A stretch of DNA of 64,000 bases, taken from assembly GCA_903919145.1 (NCBI GenBank), contig CAIXGW010000016.1, forward strand, positions 49,367 through 113,366, written 5' to 3'. The translations under genes and the position numbers were made by a program. Source of the stretch: an uncultured Myxococcales bacterium (GTDB lineage: Bacteria > Myxococcota_A > UBA9042). Of this stretch, positions 41,341 through 48,998 are shown one piece after another; within the stretch, counting starts at the first letter, position 1; every line of letters starts with the position of its first letter. The notes under the pieces were generated by a model, which was not told the DNA's origin, made no database searches, and saw nothing but the letters and a program-made list of their open reading frames with translations.

Positions 41341-42132
41341 CTAGGGCTCGGCGCCAGGCCCGCTGGCCAAAGCCAGGGCATAGCGCTCGCGTAGCGCGTC
41401 GGCCACGACCCGCGCATCCTCGTCTTCGCTGATGCTGAGGGGAGCCAGGGCATCAATGACCGCGACGCCGCGCTTGGGCACAAACTGCCCCTGCGGCCAC
41501 AGGGCAAAGTGGTTGTGCAGGACCATCGGTTGAATCGGCACCTTGGCCATGGCGGCCAGGTGAAAGGCCCCCAGCTTGAAGCGCCCAAGCGCGCCGTCGG
41601 CCGAGCGGGTCCCCTCGGGAGCGATCAGCAGCTGCAGCTGTTCCGCGTGCATGCGCGCCGCGGCGTGCTGCAGGGACTCGTAGGCGTGCTCGCGGTTGCC
41701 GCGCTCTAGGAACACCGAGCCCAGCGAGGCACAGCCAATGCCAAGCAGCGGGATCTTGCGCATTTCTTTCTTGACGACCAGGACGCCGCCTTCTGGCAGC
41801 AGAGCCGCCCCGGTCAGGACGTCCAGCGTCGAGCTGTGGTTGAACGTCAGGACCCGCGGAGTCCGCTGGGCCAGCACCTGCTGGGCGCGGGCAGTAAACT
41901 GCACCTCGATGCCGGCGATGCGGGCCATGGTGCGCCCCCACATCCGCACCAGCTGCGGACCGCCCACCGTGCGCCGCTTGGGGCCCATGACCGAGCACGC
42001 GACCACAATCCCGGGGATGAAGGCAGAGGTAAACGCCCAGCCCGCAGCCTGGCGCGCCCAAGCCGTGGCAGAGAAGGCAGAGATGCTGGGATCGGCAGGT
42101 GGGCGAGAGGAAGAAGCCATCATGGCAACCAT
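41341..42132 (-). CDS. PlsC-type 1-acylglycerol-3-phosphate acyltransferase
   Basis: 263 residues. The acyltransferase motifs are NHSSTLD (H-x4-D catalytic), a FLERGN segment and PEGTRS (phosphate binding), followed by motif IV-like VPIQPMVLHN. An N-terminal hydrophobic segment anchors it. It should acylate lysophosphatidate or another lipid precursor; exact substrate unknown. Lies 30 bases downstream of the GCS2-like gene, so it may share its transcript. Confidence 0.88.
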   Translation of the reverse strand: MVAMMASSSRPPADPSISAFSATAWARQAAGWAFTSAFIPGIVVACSVMGPKRRTVGGPQLVRMWGRTMARIAGIEVQFTARAQQVLAQRTPRVLTFNHSSTLDVLTGAALLPEGGVLVVKKEMRKIPLLGIGCASLGSVFLERGNREHAYESLQHAAARMHAEQLQLLIAPEGTRSADGALGRFKLGAFHLAAMAKVPIQPMVLHNHFALWPQGQFVPKRGVAVIDALAPLSISEDEDARVVADALRERYALALASGPGAEP

Positions 42133-42162: not shown

Positions 42163-43860
42163 CTATTGCGGTCGCACCCGGCGCACTGCAGCCAGCAGCT
42201 TGGCAATCCGCAGCTGGTCCAGCGGCGGCAAAGACGGCAGGTCGCGCTCGATCATGGCCAATTCAAGGGTCATGGCCGCGCGGGTGCGCCGCAGCAGCTC
42301 GCGGGGGTAGGAGTCATCTGGCAGCAAGCGGGCGTTGGCGCGCGAGTCGGTGTCGATGCCATACCAGGCCCCTGCTTCGCGGCGGATCCGCTCGGCCGGC
42401 GGAGCGACTTCGCCCAGGGCGGCGCGGCGGATGAGCGACAGATCCTCTGTTCTGCCAAGGGCGTCAGCTACCTGAGCCGTGTCATTGAGCACCCGGGTCA
42501 GGGCTTCTCTGGCGGACATGGCGTGCATCGAAGACGGGATCCAGCGGATCTGGGCGTTCAAGCCGCCATATAGGACGGCCTGCTCGTTGCTCTTGGCGGC
42601 CTGCAGCTCAAGCTCGCCGTACTCCAGCTCGTCGATCTGCGCCGGGTTCTCTGCCAGCCAGACAAACAACACATCCAAGAAGCTGTGGACAGCCTTCATC
42701 CACTCGTACGGCGTTTGGTAGTCGCCTCCAGGGCTGTCTACGGCGAACGCTGGCGGCGTCTCTAGGGTGCGCACTTCGACCCGGTTGCGAGGCGCCCGCA
42801 CGTAGCGCTCTAGCAGGTCTTGGCGCCATCGCTCCATCTTCTGCCAGGCTGGGTCGCCGCGCAGGGGGTTTTCTTGATAGTGGGGGCCGTGTTGGAAGCA
42901 GGCGAACAGCAGGGCTTTGGCCCGCGCCTCGCCCTCCGCATCGCCCAGGTCCAGCCCGGCATCGGCGCACAGCTCGGCAAAACTGGGCCCCGGGGCGACG
43001 CGGCCCGGCTGGGCCCGCACCGCCAGCCAGATGTCGCGACCAGAAAGAAGGGTGCCTGACTCGGCAAACTGCCTCATGGTGCGGCGGAACTGCACTGGGT
43101 CGTGGTACAGCCCAGACACGTCCATCAGGGTGCGGCCCGGCCACACGTGGCCTAACCGGGCGGAATCCCAAGGCGTGATGCTGGTGCCGTACACCGGAGC
43201 CGGCCGCTCAAACCCGGCGCCAAAGAACAGCGGCGAAGACGCCGACAGGGCGATCGACAGCGCACCGGCCACCAGGCGCATTCTGCCGGTCATCTCAATG
43301 ATTTTGCGCGAGATATCGGCTTCACCGACGTCGCCAATCCACGGCGCCGACAGGTTGAAGTGGTCGCCAGCCGCAGCGCCTACTTTGTCGCCGTGCACGC
43401 CGATCTGGTACTGGTAGTAGAAGCGCTTGAACGGATCGGTGTCGCGGGTTGCGTCGTCTTGGGTGATCCACGGCGGTCGCCACGCAGCGCCATGCAGCAA
43501 CTGAGCGCGGTGGCCGTGCTTGGCGTTCAGGTCCTGCAGCGCCGAGTCAATGAGGATGGCCATCAGCCGCTGCGCCGCAGCCGTAGACACCGGCGCGCGC
43601 AGAGGTGCCGGGTTGGCCTCGACGATGGTCTCTGGCACGTCTGGCACGACTTCTTCAGCCAGCTCAGCCACATCGCCGCCATGTCCGCGCAGCCACCGCC
43701 GAATGGCGCTGGTGGGCTGCTGGCCGGCCAGGGTGTGCAGCACTTCAAAAGTCTGCGAGTCGATGACAATGCCTTCGGTCTCGGGGCCCAGGTGAGGGGC
43801 GCCGGTCTCGATGGCGGTGCGGATCGCGTCGAGGCGCCGGGATGTGATTCGCTCAGGCAC
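42163..43860 (-). CDS. Glutamate-cysteine-ligase-family (GCS2) protein
   Basis: 565 residues related to the GCS2/YbdK carboxylate-amine ligases that form amide bonds to glutamate using ATP. Recognisable signatures are GPETEGIVID (nucleotide/Mg-binding strand), GDHFNLSAPW, ALSASSPLFFG and NRVEVRTLETPP. The C-terminal 150 residues are a helical extension beyond typical family members (about 370-450). The GTG start lies in the last codons of the aminotransferase-like gene (8-base overlap, GGAG seven bases upstream); the longer track ORF is rejected. Substrates are unknown; genuine glutamate-cysteine ligase activity is one option. Confidence 0.8.
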   Translation of the reverse strand: MPERITSRRLDAIRTAIETGAPHLGPETEGIVIDSQTFEVLHTLAGQQPTSAIRRWLRGHGGDVAELAEEVVPDVPETIVEANPAPLRAPVSTAAAQRLMAILIDSALQDLNAKHGHRAQLLHGAAWRPPWITQDDATRDTDPFKRFYYQYQIGVHGDKVGAAAGDHFNLSAPWIGDVGEADISRKIIEMTGRMRLVAGALSIALSASSPLFFGAGFERPAPVYGTSITPWDSARLGHVWPGRTLMDVSGLYHDPVQFRRTMRQFAESGTLLSGRDIWLAVRAQPGRVAPGPSFAELCADAGLDLGDAEGEARAKALLFACFQHGPHYQENPLRGDPAWQKMERWRQDLLERYVRAPRNRVEVRTLETPPAFAVDSPGGDYQTPYEWMKAVHSFLDVLFVWLAENPAQIDELEYGELELQAAKSNEQAVLYGGLNAQIRWIPSSMHAMSAREALTRVLNDTAQVADALGRTEDLSLIRRAALGEVAPPAERIRREAGAWYGIDTDSRANARLLPDDSYPRELLRRTRAAMTLELAMIERDLPSLPPLDQLRIAKLLAAVRRVRPQ

Positions 43861-45277
43861 GCGCTTGCTCCAGCAATTGTTCAAGGATGGCGCCGACCCG
43901 CTCGACATCGGCCAGGGTCACTGCCGCCGTCAGTCGCACCAGCACGGTCGCCTCGGGCGCAGGAGAGAACATGCCACCCGGCGCCCCCACCAAGCCGTAG
44001 CGGGCCACCAGCGCAGAGATCACAGCCTTGGCATCGGTCAGCGGCTGGCCGCCTGGGTCCTTGAGCAGGCTGTTGCCCTGGCCGTCTACAAGGGCGGCGG
44101 TGCCGTAGAAGGAGCCGCCGATCGACAGGGGAATGCCCAGCCGGTCGCAGACCGCGCGCATAGCGTCGCGCGCATCGCGCAGGGCCACGTAGCGCGGTCC
44201 CATGGCGGCGTGCAGGCCACCGGGAAAGGTGTGCAGCGCCGCCGCCACCAGCGCCTCTTGCGGCCGCGGATAGAGGTTGGTGGTCTTGAGCCGCTCGCTG
44301 GCGTGGTGTATCAGCGTCTTGGCCGGGCCATCGTGGCCCGCCGGGGCGCACCAAATCAGCGAAGCGGTCTTGTTTTGCGAGCTGGAGACCTTGGTCTCGC
44401 CCACCAAAATGCCCAGGTATCCCAGCACCTCCGGCGCCAGCTTGGCCTCGAGCTCGGCCATTGGCACGCACGCCGCGTGGCCGCGCGGGTCCAGCGGCGA
44501 GTAGAACGCGTCGATCAGCATGGGCACCTGGGCCGCTGCCGCCACCTCGGCCATGCGCGCCAATTCTTCTGCGCTAAGGCCGATACCGCTGGGATTGCTG
44601 GGGACTACGGGTACCACGCCAATGACCGACCGGCCCACTTCGGCGGCAAAAGCCAGCGCCGAGCGCAGCCCCTCGCAGCTGCCCGCCAAGCCGTGGCCCG
44701 GCACCGCCGGCATGTGGATGAGCTCCAGGTCCAGGTCGGCCGCCAGCGGCTGATAGCCCGACCAGGCCAGCGGATCCAAGACAATGGCATAGGGGGCCGG
44801 CAGCTTCTGCAGCTTGGCAGCGGCGATCATGCCGCGAAAGGCGCAGTCGAGTGCGGCGCGGCCAGACACGGTGTGCACCGCCAGCGTCCGCCCTGCGATT
44901 CCCCAGCTCTGGGCCAAGATGTTCAGAACCGATAGATACTGCTGCTGATAGTTGCCGGGATAGCCATAGGCGCCCCCCGTCACGCGCCGCAGCTCGCTGG
45001 CGCCCTCGGCCACCAGCCGGTCGCGGGTCTGCTCGATCCAGGCGCCCAGATCGGCGTGAAGAGGCTGGCCGACGTCGTCGATGTCACCGGCCGACTGATC
45101 GATGACCGGCAAGCCAGCGGCGCGGCGGTCGCGGGCCAGCTTCTTGAGGTCGGGCAGCGTCGGCAGGCCGGGAACAGCAACAGAAATGAGCGGTTCGCGC
45201 AAGCCGACCGCGCCGGCGACAAAGCGCTCCATGGCGGCGGCGCTTGGAGAGAGGGATGGGATCACGGTGAACTCCAT
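43853..45277 (-). CDS. PLP-dependent aminotransferase-like enzyme
   Basis: 474 residues of fold-type I PLP enzymes. Features are GGAYGYPGNYQQQYL, a VPSNPSGIGLS segment (the NPxG-type motif), LIDAFYSP (cofactor Asp), and GETKVSSSQNKT with a candidate cofactor lysine. It is not a close match to aspartate or tyrosine aminotransferases that I know. The coding region overlaps the GCS2-like ligase by 8 bases, so both are made together. A coupled aminotransferase-ligase step in making an amino-acid conjugate is inference. Confidence 0.82.
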   Translation of the reverse strand: MEFTVIPSLSPSAAAMERFVAGAVGLREPLISVAVPGLPTLPDLKKLARDRRAAGLPVIDQSAGDIDDVGQPLHADLGAWIEQTRDRLVAEGASELRRVTGGAYGYPGNYQQQYLSVLNILAQSWGIAGRTLAVHTVSGRAALDCAFRGMIAAAKLQKLPAPYAIVLDPLAWSGYQPLAADLDLELIHMPAVPGHGLAGSCEGLRSALAFAAEVGRSVIGVVPVVPSNPSGIGLSAEELARMAEVAAAAQVPMLIDAFYSPLDPRGHAACVPMAELEAKLAPEVLGYLGILVGETKVSSSQNKTASLIWCAPAGHDGPAKTLIHHASERLKTTNLYPRPQEALVAAALHTFPGGLHAAMGPRYVALRDARDAMRAVCDRLGIPLSIGGSFYGTAALVDGQGNSLLKDPGGQPLTDAKAVISALVARYGLVGAPGGMFSPAPEATVLVRLTAAVTLADVERVGAILEQLLEQARA

Positions 45278-45433: not shown

Positions 45434-47269
45434 CTACTTGCAGATCGGCGCCACCGTGATGCTGGACCCGGGCGTGCAGGTCTGGTCCTTGCAGTCCTTG
45501 TACTGGGTCCAGTCGCCATAACTAGTTATTGACCCTGCGCATTTCGAAGGCTCGGTGCCGGTGCAGCCGCCGCTGAAGACGTCGCGCTTCATCACCAGGC
45601 TGCCCTCGCACTTGTACTCGGCGCCGCTCTTGAGGCCGCCGCAGGTGGCGCCCTTTTCTTTAAGGGTGTTGGTCGGGATGTCGCAGCAGATGCCGGCGGT
45701 GCAGCAGCCCGCCACGGCCTTGAGCTCGCACTTGCCCGTGACCGTGTTGCAGGCTTTCTCTTCGCAAATGCCCGGCACGGCGGGATCGGCGTCGCAGTCG
45801 GCATTGGTCACGCAGCATCCGGGCTTCTGGGTGCCGCTGCACACGCCCGCCGCATCGCACTTGGGCAGGTTGAAGCAGCCGCCAAGGTTGCAGGCTGAGC
45901 CGGCGGCCTTCTGGGTCCACGCGCTGGGCGTCTTGGTGTCGCACACAAAACAGCCGCCGCTGCCGGGCTGCGAGGCGCCGCTGGCGATGCACTTGCCGTC
46001 AATCAGGCACTTGCCGGCCGCCGCCGTCCAGCCGCTTTTGTTCTTGGCGGGATCGCAGGTTTGGCAGGCGTTGGTCGGGTCGGCTTGGCCGGTCGAGTAG
46101 CAGGTGCCGTCAATGAGGCACTTGCCGGCCGCCGCGGTCCAGCCGCTCTTGTTCTTGGTGGGGTCGCAGATCTGGCACGAGTTGGTGGGGTCGACGGCGT
46201 TGGCGGCGATGCAGGCCCCGTCAATCGCACAAAACCCGGTCTTGCCGGACCAGCCGGTGGGGTTGGCGACCGGGTCGCAGATCTCGCAGCTGCTGGCGGG
46301 GTTGATGTCGCCGGACTTGTGACACACGTCGCCGATCAGGCAGCTGCCGGTCTTGACCGACCAGGCGCTGGTGGACTTGGTGGTGTCGCACACCGCGCAC
46401 GCCGCACCGTCTTTGGCCGTGCCGCTGGCCACGCAGACGCCCTGGATGGCGCACTTGCCCGTCTTGGCGGTCCAGGCGGTCTGCGACTTGGCCGGGTCGC
46501 AGGTCGAGCAGCCGCCCGAGTCGGGCTGTTCGTCGCCGGCTTTGAAGCAGGCTCCATCGACCAGGCACTGTACGGCCTTGGTCTTGTTGACGCACTTGCC
46601 GTCGGCCTTGCTGCAGTAGTCGTCGGTACAGGCAATGCCGTCGTCGCAGTTCATGGGCTGCAGCGTGCAGGTACCTGACAGGCACTTGGGGGTGTTGCAG
46701 GCGTCTCCGCCGCTGCACTCGCTGTCGGCCATGCAGCAGGACTTCAAGGGCTGCTGAAAACAGATGCCCTGGGCCTTGTTGCACGAGTCCTGGGTGCAGT
46801 CATTGCTGTCGTCGCAGTCCTTGTCGCTGCCGCAGGTGCAGACGGCCGCAAAGTCGTCACAGCAAGAGCCCTCGCTCTGGCATAGCACCGAGCAGTGGCA
46901 AGCATTCTCTTCCAGGTAGATGCCGCAGTGCCCTTGGCAAGAGGTGATGGGCGCCGTGGTCTCTGGGCCAATGTCCTGGGCATCGCTGCCGGTAGCGCCA
47001 TCTTCCAGGTCGCTAGGCGCCACATCACTGCCGGACTGTTCGTCGCCGGCAAGGCCATCTGGGTCGGCCGTGTCTGGCAGGCGCGCGCTGTCTTCGCCGC
47101 CGCTGGAGTCGGGCACGGGAAAGCCGTTCTCGCTGTCGAGCTCCGTCTTGGTTTCTGGCAGGTTGTAGCTGGGCTCTTTCTTGGGCTCTTCGCTGGCACA
47201 GCCGATCGCCAAGGCCGCGGCCACCGCGAACTGCACTGCCAAGCGGACCTTTTGACTGCACCCGACCAT
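45434..47269 (-). CDS. Cysteine-rich repeat lipoprotein with somatomedin-B-like domain
   Basis: 611 residues, lipobox ALAIGC. The ATG is chosen over a TTG one codon earlier; GAGG is five bases upstream. Residues 25-110 are an acidic Pro/Ser linker. Residues 111-144 (CQGHCGIYLEENACHC...CCDDFAAVC) have the cysteine spacing of a somatomedin-B domain. From about 234 to 457 there are six tandem 37-38-residue units with six-cysteine spacing (CLIDGxC...CQxCDPxKNKSGWTAAAG). A further cysteine-rich tail follows. All point to a disulphide-rich surface-exposed protein. Function unknown. Confidence 0.85.
   Translation of the reverse strand: MVGCSQKVRLAVQFAVAAALAIGCASEEPKKEPSYNLPETKTELDSENGFPVPDSSGGEDSARLPDTADPDGLAGDEQSGSDVAPSDLEDGATGSDAQDIGPETTAPITSCQGHCGIYLEENACHCSVLCQSEGSCCDDFAAVCTCGSDKDCDDSNDCTQDSCNKAQGICFQQPLKSCCMADSECSGGDACNTPKCLSGTCTLQPMNCDDGIACTDDYCSKADGKCVNKTKAVQCLVDGACFKAGDEQPDSGGCSTCDPAKSQTAWTAKTGKCAIQGVCVASGTAKDGAACAVCDTTKSTSAWSVKTGSCLIGDVCHKSGDINPASSCEICDPVANPTGWSGKTGFCAIDGACIAANAVDPTNSCQICDPTKNKSGWTAAAGKCLIDGTCYSTGQADPTNACQTCDPAKNKSGWTAAAGKCLIDGKCIASGASQPGSGGCFVCDTKTPSAWTQKAAGSACNLGGCFNLPKCDAAGVCSGTQKPGCCVTNADCDADPAVPGICEEKACNTVTGKCELKAVAGCCTAGICCDIPTNTLKEKGATCGGLKSGAEYKCEGSLVMKRDVFSGGCTGTEPSKCAGSITSYGDWTQYKDCKDQTCTPGSSITVAPICK
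45899..46570. repeat. Six 111-114-bp tandem repeats within the Cys-rich lipoprotein gene
   Basis: Six coding repeats of 37-38 codons. The fourth and fifth units share long identical peptide runs (for example KNKSGWTAAAGKC), so the array has expanded by recent duplication. Confidence 0.85.
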
Positions 47270-47367
47270 CAAGACCTCGCGACGGCGGTCGCCATCAGCG
47301 CCCAGGCTCAGGGCAAAGGTGACCCTCGGCTCGGTCAGTATATCGCCGCTCTTTCAGCCGCGCGAAT

Positions 47368-47822: not shown

Positions 47823-48998
47823 ATGACCAACCTTCCTCTGCTTTTGTTGCGCCATGCCCACCTGTACGACCCGGTTGACCGCGGCGTAGTGGACTTACTG
47901 ATTGCCGGCTCACAAGTGGCTGCTGTGGGAGCTGGTTTGGGGCCGGCGCCAGCGGGTTGGCCCTGCGAGACCCTGGATCTGCAAGGGGCGGCGGTGGCGC
48001 CGGGGCTGATAGATTGCCATGTGCATTTTGCCGGTGGCGGCGGCGAGGCGGGCGCCCAGACGCGGGTGCCGCCGGTGCAGCTGACCCACCTGACCCTGGC
48101 GGGCGTCACCAGCGCGATTGGCCTGCTTGGCACCGATGGATCGACACGCACCATTGCGGAATTGCTGGCGTGTGCCCGTACCCTGGCCTTTCACGGCCTG
48201 TCTACCTGGTGCTACACCGGCTCCTATGAGCTGCCGCTGGTGACCCTGACCGGCTCGGTGCGCGGCGATCTGGTGCACAACGATCGCCTGGTGGCCGTGG
48301 GCGAGCTGGCCGTGTCAGACCACCGCAGCTCGCAGCCGACCTATGACGAATTGCTGCGGGTGGCCGCGGATTGCCACGTCAGCGGCATGATGACCGGCAA
48401 GGCCGGCCTGCTGCACCTGCACCTGGGGGACGGCAAGCGCGGCCTGGAGCTGCTGCGGCGGGCCTTGACCGAAACAGAGCTTCCCGCCAGGACTTTTCAC
48501 CCAACCCATGTCAACCGTCAGCGCTGGCTGTGGCAAGAGGCCAAGGCGCTGGCCCGCGACCACGGCTGCACCGTGGACGTCACGGCCTTTGAGGCAGACG
48601 CTGACTCCCTAGATGTGGTTGAAGCAATTGAGGATTGGCTCGACAGTGGCCTTGACCCGGCGCGCCTGACCGCCAGCAGCGACGGCGGCGGCTGCTTGCC
48701 GGTGTTTGATCGCGACGGCGTGTTGCTGCACATGGACGTGGGCCGCTCGATGGGCCTGTCTGACGCGCTGGTCGAACTGCTTAGCCGCGGCCGGACCCTA
48801 TCAGAGGTGCTGCCGTTCTTTACCAGCAATGTGGCGCGGTTGTTTCGCCTGCGCGGCAAAGGCAGCTTGAGCGCGGGCGCCGATGCCGACCTGCAGGTGC
48901 TGGATGCCAGCGGCCGACCGACCGACGTGCTGGCCGGCGGGCGCTGGTTGGTGCGCCATCGCCAGCCGGTGGTGCGCGGCCTGTTTGAGCCGGGGTGA
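47823..48998 (+). CDS. iadA: Isoaspartyl dipeptidase
   Basis: 391 residues, the length of E. coli IadA. An amidohydrolase-superfamily metalloenzyme that hydrolyses beta-aspartyl dipeptides. DCHVHFAGGGGEAG carries the HxH metal ligands and the family GGGGEAG segment, HPTHVNR a further His pair, and SSDGGGCLPVFD the catalytic Asp. The start ATG lies well inside the track ORF, which runs back through the small lipoprotein gene on the other strand. Confidence 0.92.
   Translation: MTNLPLLLLRHAHLYDPVDRGVVDLLIAGSQVAAVGAGLGPAPAGWPCETLDLQGAAVAPGLIDCHVHFAGGGGEAGAQTRVPPVQLTHLTLAGVTSAIGLLGTDGSTRTIAELLACARTLAFHGLSTWCYTGSYELPLVTLTGSVRGDLVHNDRLVAVGELAVSDHRSSQPTYDELLRVAADCHVSGMMTGKAGLLHLHLGDGKRGLELLRRALTETELPARTFHPTHVNRQRWLWQEAKALARDHGCTVDVTAFEADADSLDVVEAIEDWLDSGLDPARLTASSDGGGCLPVFDRDGVLLHMDVGRSMGLSDALVELLSRGRTLSEVLPFFTSNVARLFRLRGKGSLSAGADADLQVLDASGRPTDVLAGGRWLVRHRQPVVRGLFEPG

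Follow-up and report, generated by a model that had tools for sequence, protein, structure and literature searches.

GCS2 ligases and aminotransferases are each well known. In the carboxylate-amine ligases, a GhExE motif forms part of the Mg/ATP site and is distinctive of the group (PMC2588565). A ligase, an aminotransferase and an M20-type deacylase are combined in one pathway by LysX, LysJ and LysK, and likewise by ArgX, ArgD and ArgE (PMC10433800). In the formation of pseudouridimycin, an amine is made by the aminotransferase PumG and an amino acid is added by the carboxylate-amine ligase PumK (PMC7955054). PumG/PumK shares with the pair of enzymes described here only the logic of an aminotransferase followed by a ligase; it differs in that an orthologue of PumK has been described as an ATP-grasp ligase (PMC6586884), and PumK was rejected as a homologous precedent on this account. 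In the literature searched, no conserved and coupled pairing of a GCS2 ligase with an aminotransferase was found outside of thiol metabolism.

The window analyzed here is a stretch of 64,000 nucleotides from an uncultured Myxococcales bacterium, in which a gene for a PLP enzyme and a gene for a GCS2-like ligase overlap on the minus strand. The features of this pair are as follows.

43853-45277, minus strand: PLP enzyme gene, 474 aa
44366-44398, minus strand: ETKVSSSQNKT of the PLP enzyme, holding K296 and K303, invariant in 8/8 genomes save one residue
43853-43860, minus strand: 8-base stop/start overlap of the two genes, GTGCCTGA on the coding strand
42163-43860, minus strand: GCS2-like ligase gene, 565 aa, GTG start
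43774-43788, minus strand: G-P-E-T-E of the ligase, GhExE-type signature (G25, E27, E29), aligned to the GxExE of GCS2

The GTG start codon of the ligase was found to sit within the 3' end of the PLP gene. An ATG at 43908 was assigned to the ligase by the ORF finder, giving a protein of 581 instead of 565 residues; by protein comparison, conservation of the ligase in relatives starts at the GTG or just past it. The coordinates, the ligase length of 565 residues and the 8-base overlap reported in a preliminary description of this DNA were all exact. The overlap was detected at the same place in 7 of the 7 pair-carrying genomes of the family, as GTGNNTGA or, in one of them, as GTGNNTAG. Both proteins were 76-87% identical to their relatives in the family, and pN/pS values of ~0.19-0.28 were determined within the family for both genes. 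These pN/pS values reveal purifying selection on both genes and, taken together with the protein identity, indicate that the genes are not chance ORFs.

The distribution of the pair was examined among 284 genomes of the phylum by a separate search for each protein. By this approach, both genes were found in the identical eight genomes, and no genome was detected with close homologues of the PLP or the ligase gene only. The carriers comprised every one of the six genomes in the window's genus, a genome from a second genus of the family, and G257, which belongs to another class. A further match to the PLP protein was observed in G080 (E 8e-6), where the best score was that of an ordinary aminotransferase-type protein, and no match to the ligase was found on plasmids by tblastn. 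In G257, the PLP protein and the ligase were 61% and 60% identical, respectively, to those of the window, and the two genes were adjacent and in unchanged order, with a gap of ~20 bases replacing the overlap. A profile search through the class of G257 detected the ligase in none of the remaining 70 genomes covered, one of which is of the same genus as G257. Thus, transfer or repeated loss was involved in the occurrence of the pair in G257, and the genes remained together either way. Pairwise divergences of the PLP and ligase proteins were also found to correlate, with r = 0.98 for all pairs and 0.90 when G257 was left out. The flanking genes vary between relatives, while the 8-base overlap is kept throughout the family; thus, the two genes are the unit.

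It is improbable that the two enzymes are merely co-transcribed and serve unrelated pathways. Bacterial operons often contain overlapping genes, and the sample of carriers is narrow, with 7 of 8 being relatives in one family and the counts covering this phylum; against this, presence and absence of the two genes are identical across the 284 genomes, their adjacency survives across classes despite the changed flanks, and no third gene is conserved with them. The earlier proposal that the genes are coupled agrees with these data, as the pair was unsplit in 8 of 8 genomes; coupling at the level of translation is suggested by the overlap. We conclude that the pair is a real and selected unit, the linkage of its genes being well supported.

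Assignment of the ligase to a family depended on the comparison of profiles. No match was detected for the ligase to Pfam GCS2 (PF04107) or to any NCBIfam model, including the EgtA model TIGR03444, and the ligase of G257 was likewise without a PF04107 match. PDB sequences searched with the ligase by phmmer and by profile yielded no GCS2 match, and when its own genome was searched for the GCS2 family, the ligase was missed and two other genes were picked out. A relation was observed when the ligase family was compared by hhalign to a pooled profile of 40 GCS2-type proteins from related genomes. The local score was 46.0, compared to a maximum of 24.5 over 20 column shuffles and to 14.3 for the reversed alignment. 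In global mode a P of 6e-8 was obtained over 443 colinear columns with the motifs in order, compared to 0.12 for the best shuffle and 0.044 for an unrelated PLP profile. Similarity to single GCS2 subfamilies was only suggestive by hhalign, and the relation required the pooled profile. An AlphaFold model of the ligase, built from seven close sequences, was of too low a confidence (pLDDT 48.7) to bear on a glutamine-synthetase-like fold, and gave no Foldseek match.

The catalytic signature of the ligase was found to be intact, with G25, E27 and E29 invariant in 8 of 8 genomes and the h position occupied by P or A. Besides this G-x-E-x-E, the ligase has the motifs PETIVEAN, GDHFN, ALSIALSASSPLFFG, SARLGHVW and RNRVEVRTLETPP. 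The GhExE-type signature is shared with the GCS2 family (plant-type GshA, YbdK and EgtA; PF04107; carboxylate-amine ligase superfamily), as are the second Glu motif (PETIVEAN), GDHFN, ALSIALSASSPLFFG and VEVRTLETPP, which are colinear over the 443 columns. By contrast to that family, the window's ligase is under Pfam and NCBIfam detection, is longer, is coupled to a PLP gene and is encoded in a genome that carries the ordinary types as well. That it is an ordinary glutamate-cysteine ligase is extremely unlikely: such an enzyme is favoured by the GhExE-type signature and by the remaining GCS2 motifs in colinear order, but no GCL model was matched, likeness to the GshA- and YbdK-type proteins of the same bacteria was only suggestive, the window's protein has extra length, and a plant-type GshA is already present in the genome. 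Judged by its sequence, the ligase is a very divergent GCS2-like carboxylate-amine ligase, which we do not file as a PF04107 member because no match exceeded the curated cut-off of Pfam.

The PLP protein was found to pass Pfam Aminotran_1_2 (PF00155) weakly (3.7e-7, 30.1 bits vs. a cut-off of 19.7), and its G257 relative scored 40.9 bits against the same model. No named transaminase subfamily was reached, the best NCBIfam score being ~26 bits vs. cut-offs of at least 366. Comparison of the PLP profile to other aminotransferases by hhalign gave a P of 7.5e-7 over 351 columns. The AlphaFold model (pLDDT 61.7, pTM 0.66) matched PDB structures of the aspartate-aminotransferase class at 1e-10, with C-S lyases lower in the list of structural neighbours. 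By sequence, the closest solved relative was Rv0858c, an N-succinyldiaminopimelate aminotransferase. Thus, the preliminary description was right in regarding the partner of the ligase as other than a standard aminotransferase, as it reaches no NCBIfam cut-off, and its view of the ligase as a GCS2-type enzyme is backed by the profile-profile comparison, without a Pfam match.

Residues N228, D256, Y259, K296 and R448 of the PLP protein were invariant in 8 of 8 genomes, and we take these to be the residues that contact the cofactor, the lysine of the Schiff base and the arginine that binds the carboxylate in the aspartate-aminotransferase class. K296 comes after a predicted strand in the model and, by its position, is probably the Schiff-base lysine, with K303 as the alternative. 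The fold, the N/D/Y/K/R positions and the G-x-F-Y and APG motifs are shared with members of this class (DapC Rv0858c and Thermus AAT). The PLP enzyme differs from these in being only ~18% identical, in having no subfamily match, in the location of K303 close to where the phosphate-binding arginine would be, and in its conserved ETKVxSSQNKT. The protein belongs to the aspartate-aminotransferase class as a divergent member of fold type I.

Of the two other GCS2 genes in the window's genome, one scored as a glutamate-cysteine ligase of plant type (TIGR01436, 359 bits, below the cut-off of 463) and the other as a YbdK-type carboxylate-amine ligase, above two cut-offs. A glutathione synthetase-type gene (GshB) was also found elsewhere in this genome. 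The pair is therefore not needed for glutathione and does not represent the route to it. Of the two outcomes that the preliminary description named as refuting its proposal, a pair separated in relatives and an ordinary glutamate-cysteine ligase, neither was encountered, the pair being unsplit and GshA, the YbdK-type ligase and GshB being encoded elsewhere. The preliminary description had further suggested that the product might be an unusual thiol, a suggestion that gained no ground here: neither the pair nor its conserved surroundings showed a sulfur-specific feature, and no finding points to a thiol product. In a gamma-glutamyl thiol route, the PLP enzyme would act as a C-S lyase or as the maker of a thiol amino acid that the ligase would glutamylate, similarly to EgtA/EgtE or to glutathione formation. 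Cysteine is the classical GCS2 substrate and C-S lyases are among the lower-listed structural neighbours of the PLP model; however, the ligase has no EgtA match, the best matches of the PLP enzyme are aminotransferases, GshA, the YbdK-type ligase and GshB are encoded elsewhere, and no sulfur gene is conserved next to the pair. We regard this route as quite improbable.

The function that we infer for the pair is drawn at the level of class from two known enzyme superfamilies. The PLP enzyme would most likely transaminate, or otherwise modify, an alpha-amino or alpha-keto acid. The ligase would use ATP to phosphorylate a carboxylate, probably that in the side chain of glutamate or of a comparable amino acid, and this carboxylate would then be joined to an amine. 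The two genes would form a stand-alone, translationally coupled unit, as their overlap suggests, that probably makes, or passes through, an amide-linked amino-acid conjugate other than glutathione. Such a conjugate is made plausible by the enzyme class, and the amide may be the end product or a temporary mask, as the sequence fits both. As a whole, this explanation, in which a coupled PLP enzyme and GCS2-type ligase yield a non-glutathione amide conjugate, is given an about even chance of being correct. As the unit is only two genes, its function is directly testable.

Masking of an amine was considered further in light of an M20 gene beside the pair in G257 and of a separate operon in two other genomes, as listed below.

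L025:3263-4861: M20 peptidase gene of G257, its start overlapping the ligase stop (ATGA)
L069 2-3935, minus strand, and L070 2384-7263, plus strand: ProC - GCS2 - aminotransferase - M20 operon of G046 and G042

The best NCBIfam matches of the G257 M20 protein were DapE and ArgE. No match to it was detected at 1e-10 in 19 relatives, including those of the window's genus, and seven other M20 matches were found in the window's genome. Since the window's genus gave no match to it, the trio of genes is not general. The hosts of the ProC operon are two genera from another family of the window's class, and its ligase was found in 2 of 236 genomes of the phylum. The aminotransferase and M20 genes of this operon overlap by ATGA in both G046 and G042, and its M20 proteins are not close to that of G257. 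Similarly to the window's pair, the ProC operon has a divergent GCS2 gene beside an aminotransferase gene in a tight arrangement. By contrast, its gene order is reversed, both of its proteins are recognised by Pfam, and its ligase is not significantly similar to that of the window. The proteins of the ProC operon are not orthologues of the pair, and the same combination recurs. That the ligases are non-orthologous makes this recurrence more telling.

Besides lending weight to the amide-conjugate reading, these gene sets bear on a scheme in which the ligase would mask an amine (e.g., by forming a gamma-glutamyl amide), and the masked compound would be transaminated by the PLP enzyme and unmasked by an M20 enzyme of ArgE/DapE type. 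Such a scheme would resemble LysX-LysJ-LysK, except that the ligase is of GCS2 type and that a carrier protein is lacking. The ATGA overlap of the M20 and ligase genes in G257 with its DapE/ArgE matches, the separate GCS2-aminotransferase-M20 operon with its ATGA overlaps, the relation of the PLP protein to Rv0858c and the LysW precedent (PMC10433800) are all consistent with this scheme. The combination of ligase, aminotransferase and M20-type deacylase is what is shared with the LysX-LysJ-LysK system; by contrast, the window's ligase would be of another fold, and the pair is without a carrier protein, kinase or reductase. When the LysW-type gene set (carrier protein, kinase, reductase and M20) was sought with the pair, just the M20 was found, and in G257 only. 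The pair is not adjoined by a kinase or reductase that would belong to this kind of pathway, the G257 M20 protein is unmatched in the 19 relatives, although seven other M20 matches occur in the window's genome, and the M20 proteins of G257 and of the ProC operon are not close. Protection and deprotection by this scheme is thus viewed as rather unlikely.

Returning to the amide-conjugate reading, we tentatively suggest, at somewhat less than even confidence, that a GCS2-fold ligase and a PLP enzyme of the aminotransferase class, with or without an M20 enzyme, form a new biosynthetic module that makes or temporarily masks an amino acid. Such a module would have arisen at least twice, in the pair and in the ProC operon, and would lead to an undescribed metabolite. 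If the pair does make or mask an amino acid, the GCS2 fold would extend from redox thiols to biosynthetic amide chemistry, which is better known from ATP-grasp enzymes.

Several other genes were noted during the analysis. Upstream of the PLP gene in the window, the minus-strand gene at 45434-47272 encodes a protein of cysteine-rich repeats that contains a somatomedin-B domain and matches the Dictyostelium CTDC repeats near the cut-off. A beta-aspartyl-peptidase (isoaspartyl dipeptidase; TIGR01975, 360.6 bits, above cut-off) is encoded at 47823-48998 on the plus strand; although near the pair, it was rejected as a partner, being on the opposite strand and not accompanying the pair in those relatives that were read. 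The ligase gene is followed immediately downstream, on the same strand (41341-42132, minus), by a 1-acylglycerol-3-phosphate-type acyltransferase gene, which was not seen as a neighbour of the pair in these relatives. Among GCS2-type proteins, a long protein with a weak GCS2 domain and two CBS domains at its C-terminus was detected at L064:2538-4679, and its relatives in five other genomes (L065, L066, L067, L068 and L071) are also long with a weak GCS2 domain. The fusion of a ligase to a nucleotide-sensing module, as in the L064 protein, is unusual.
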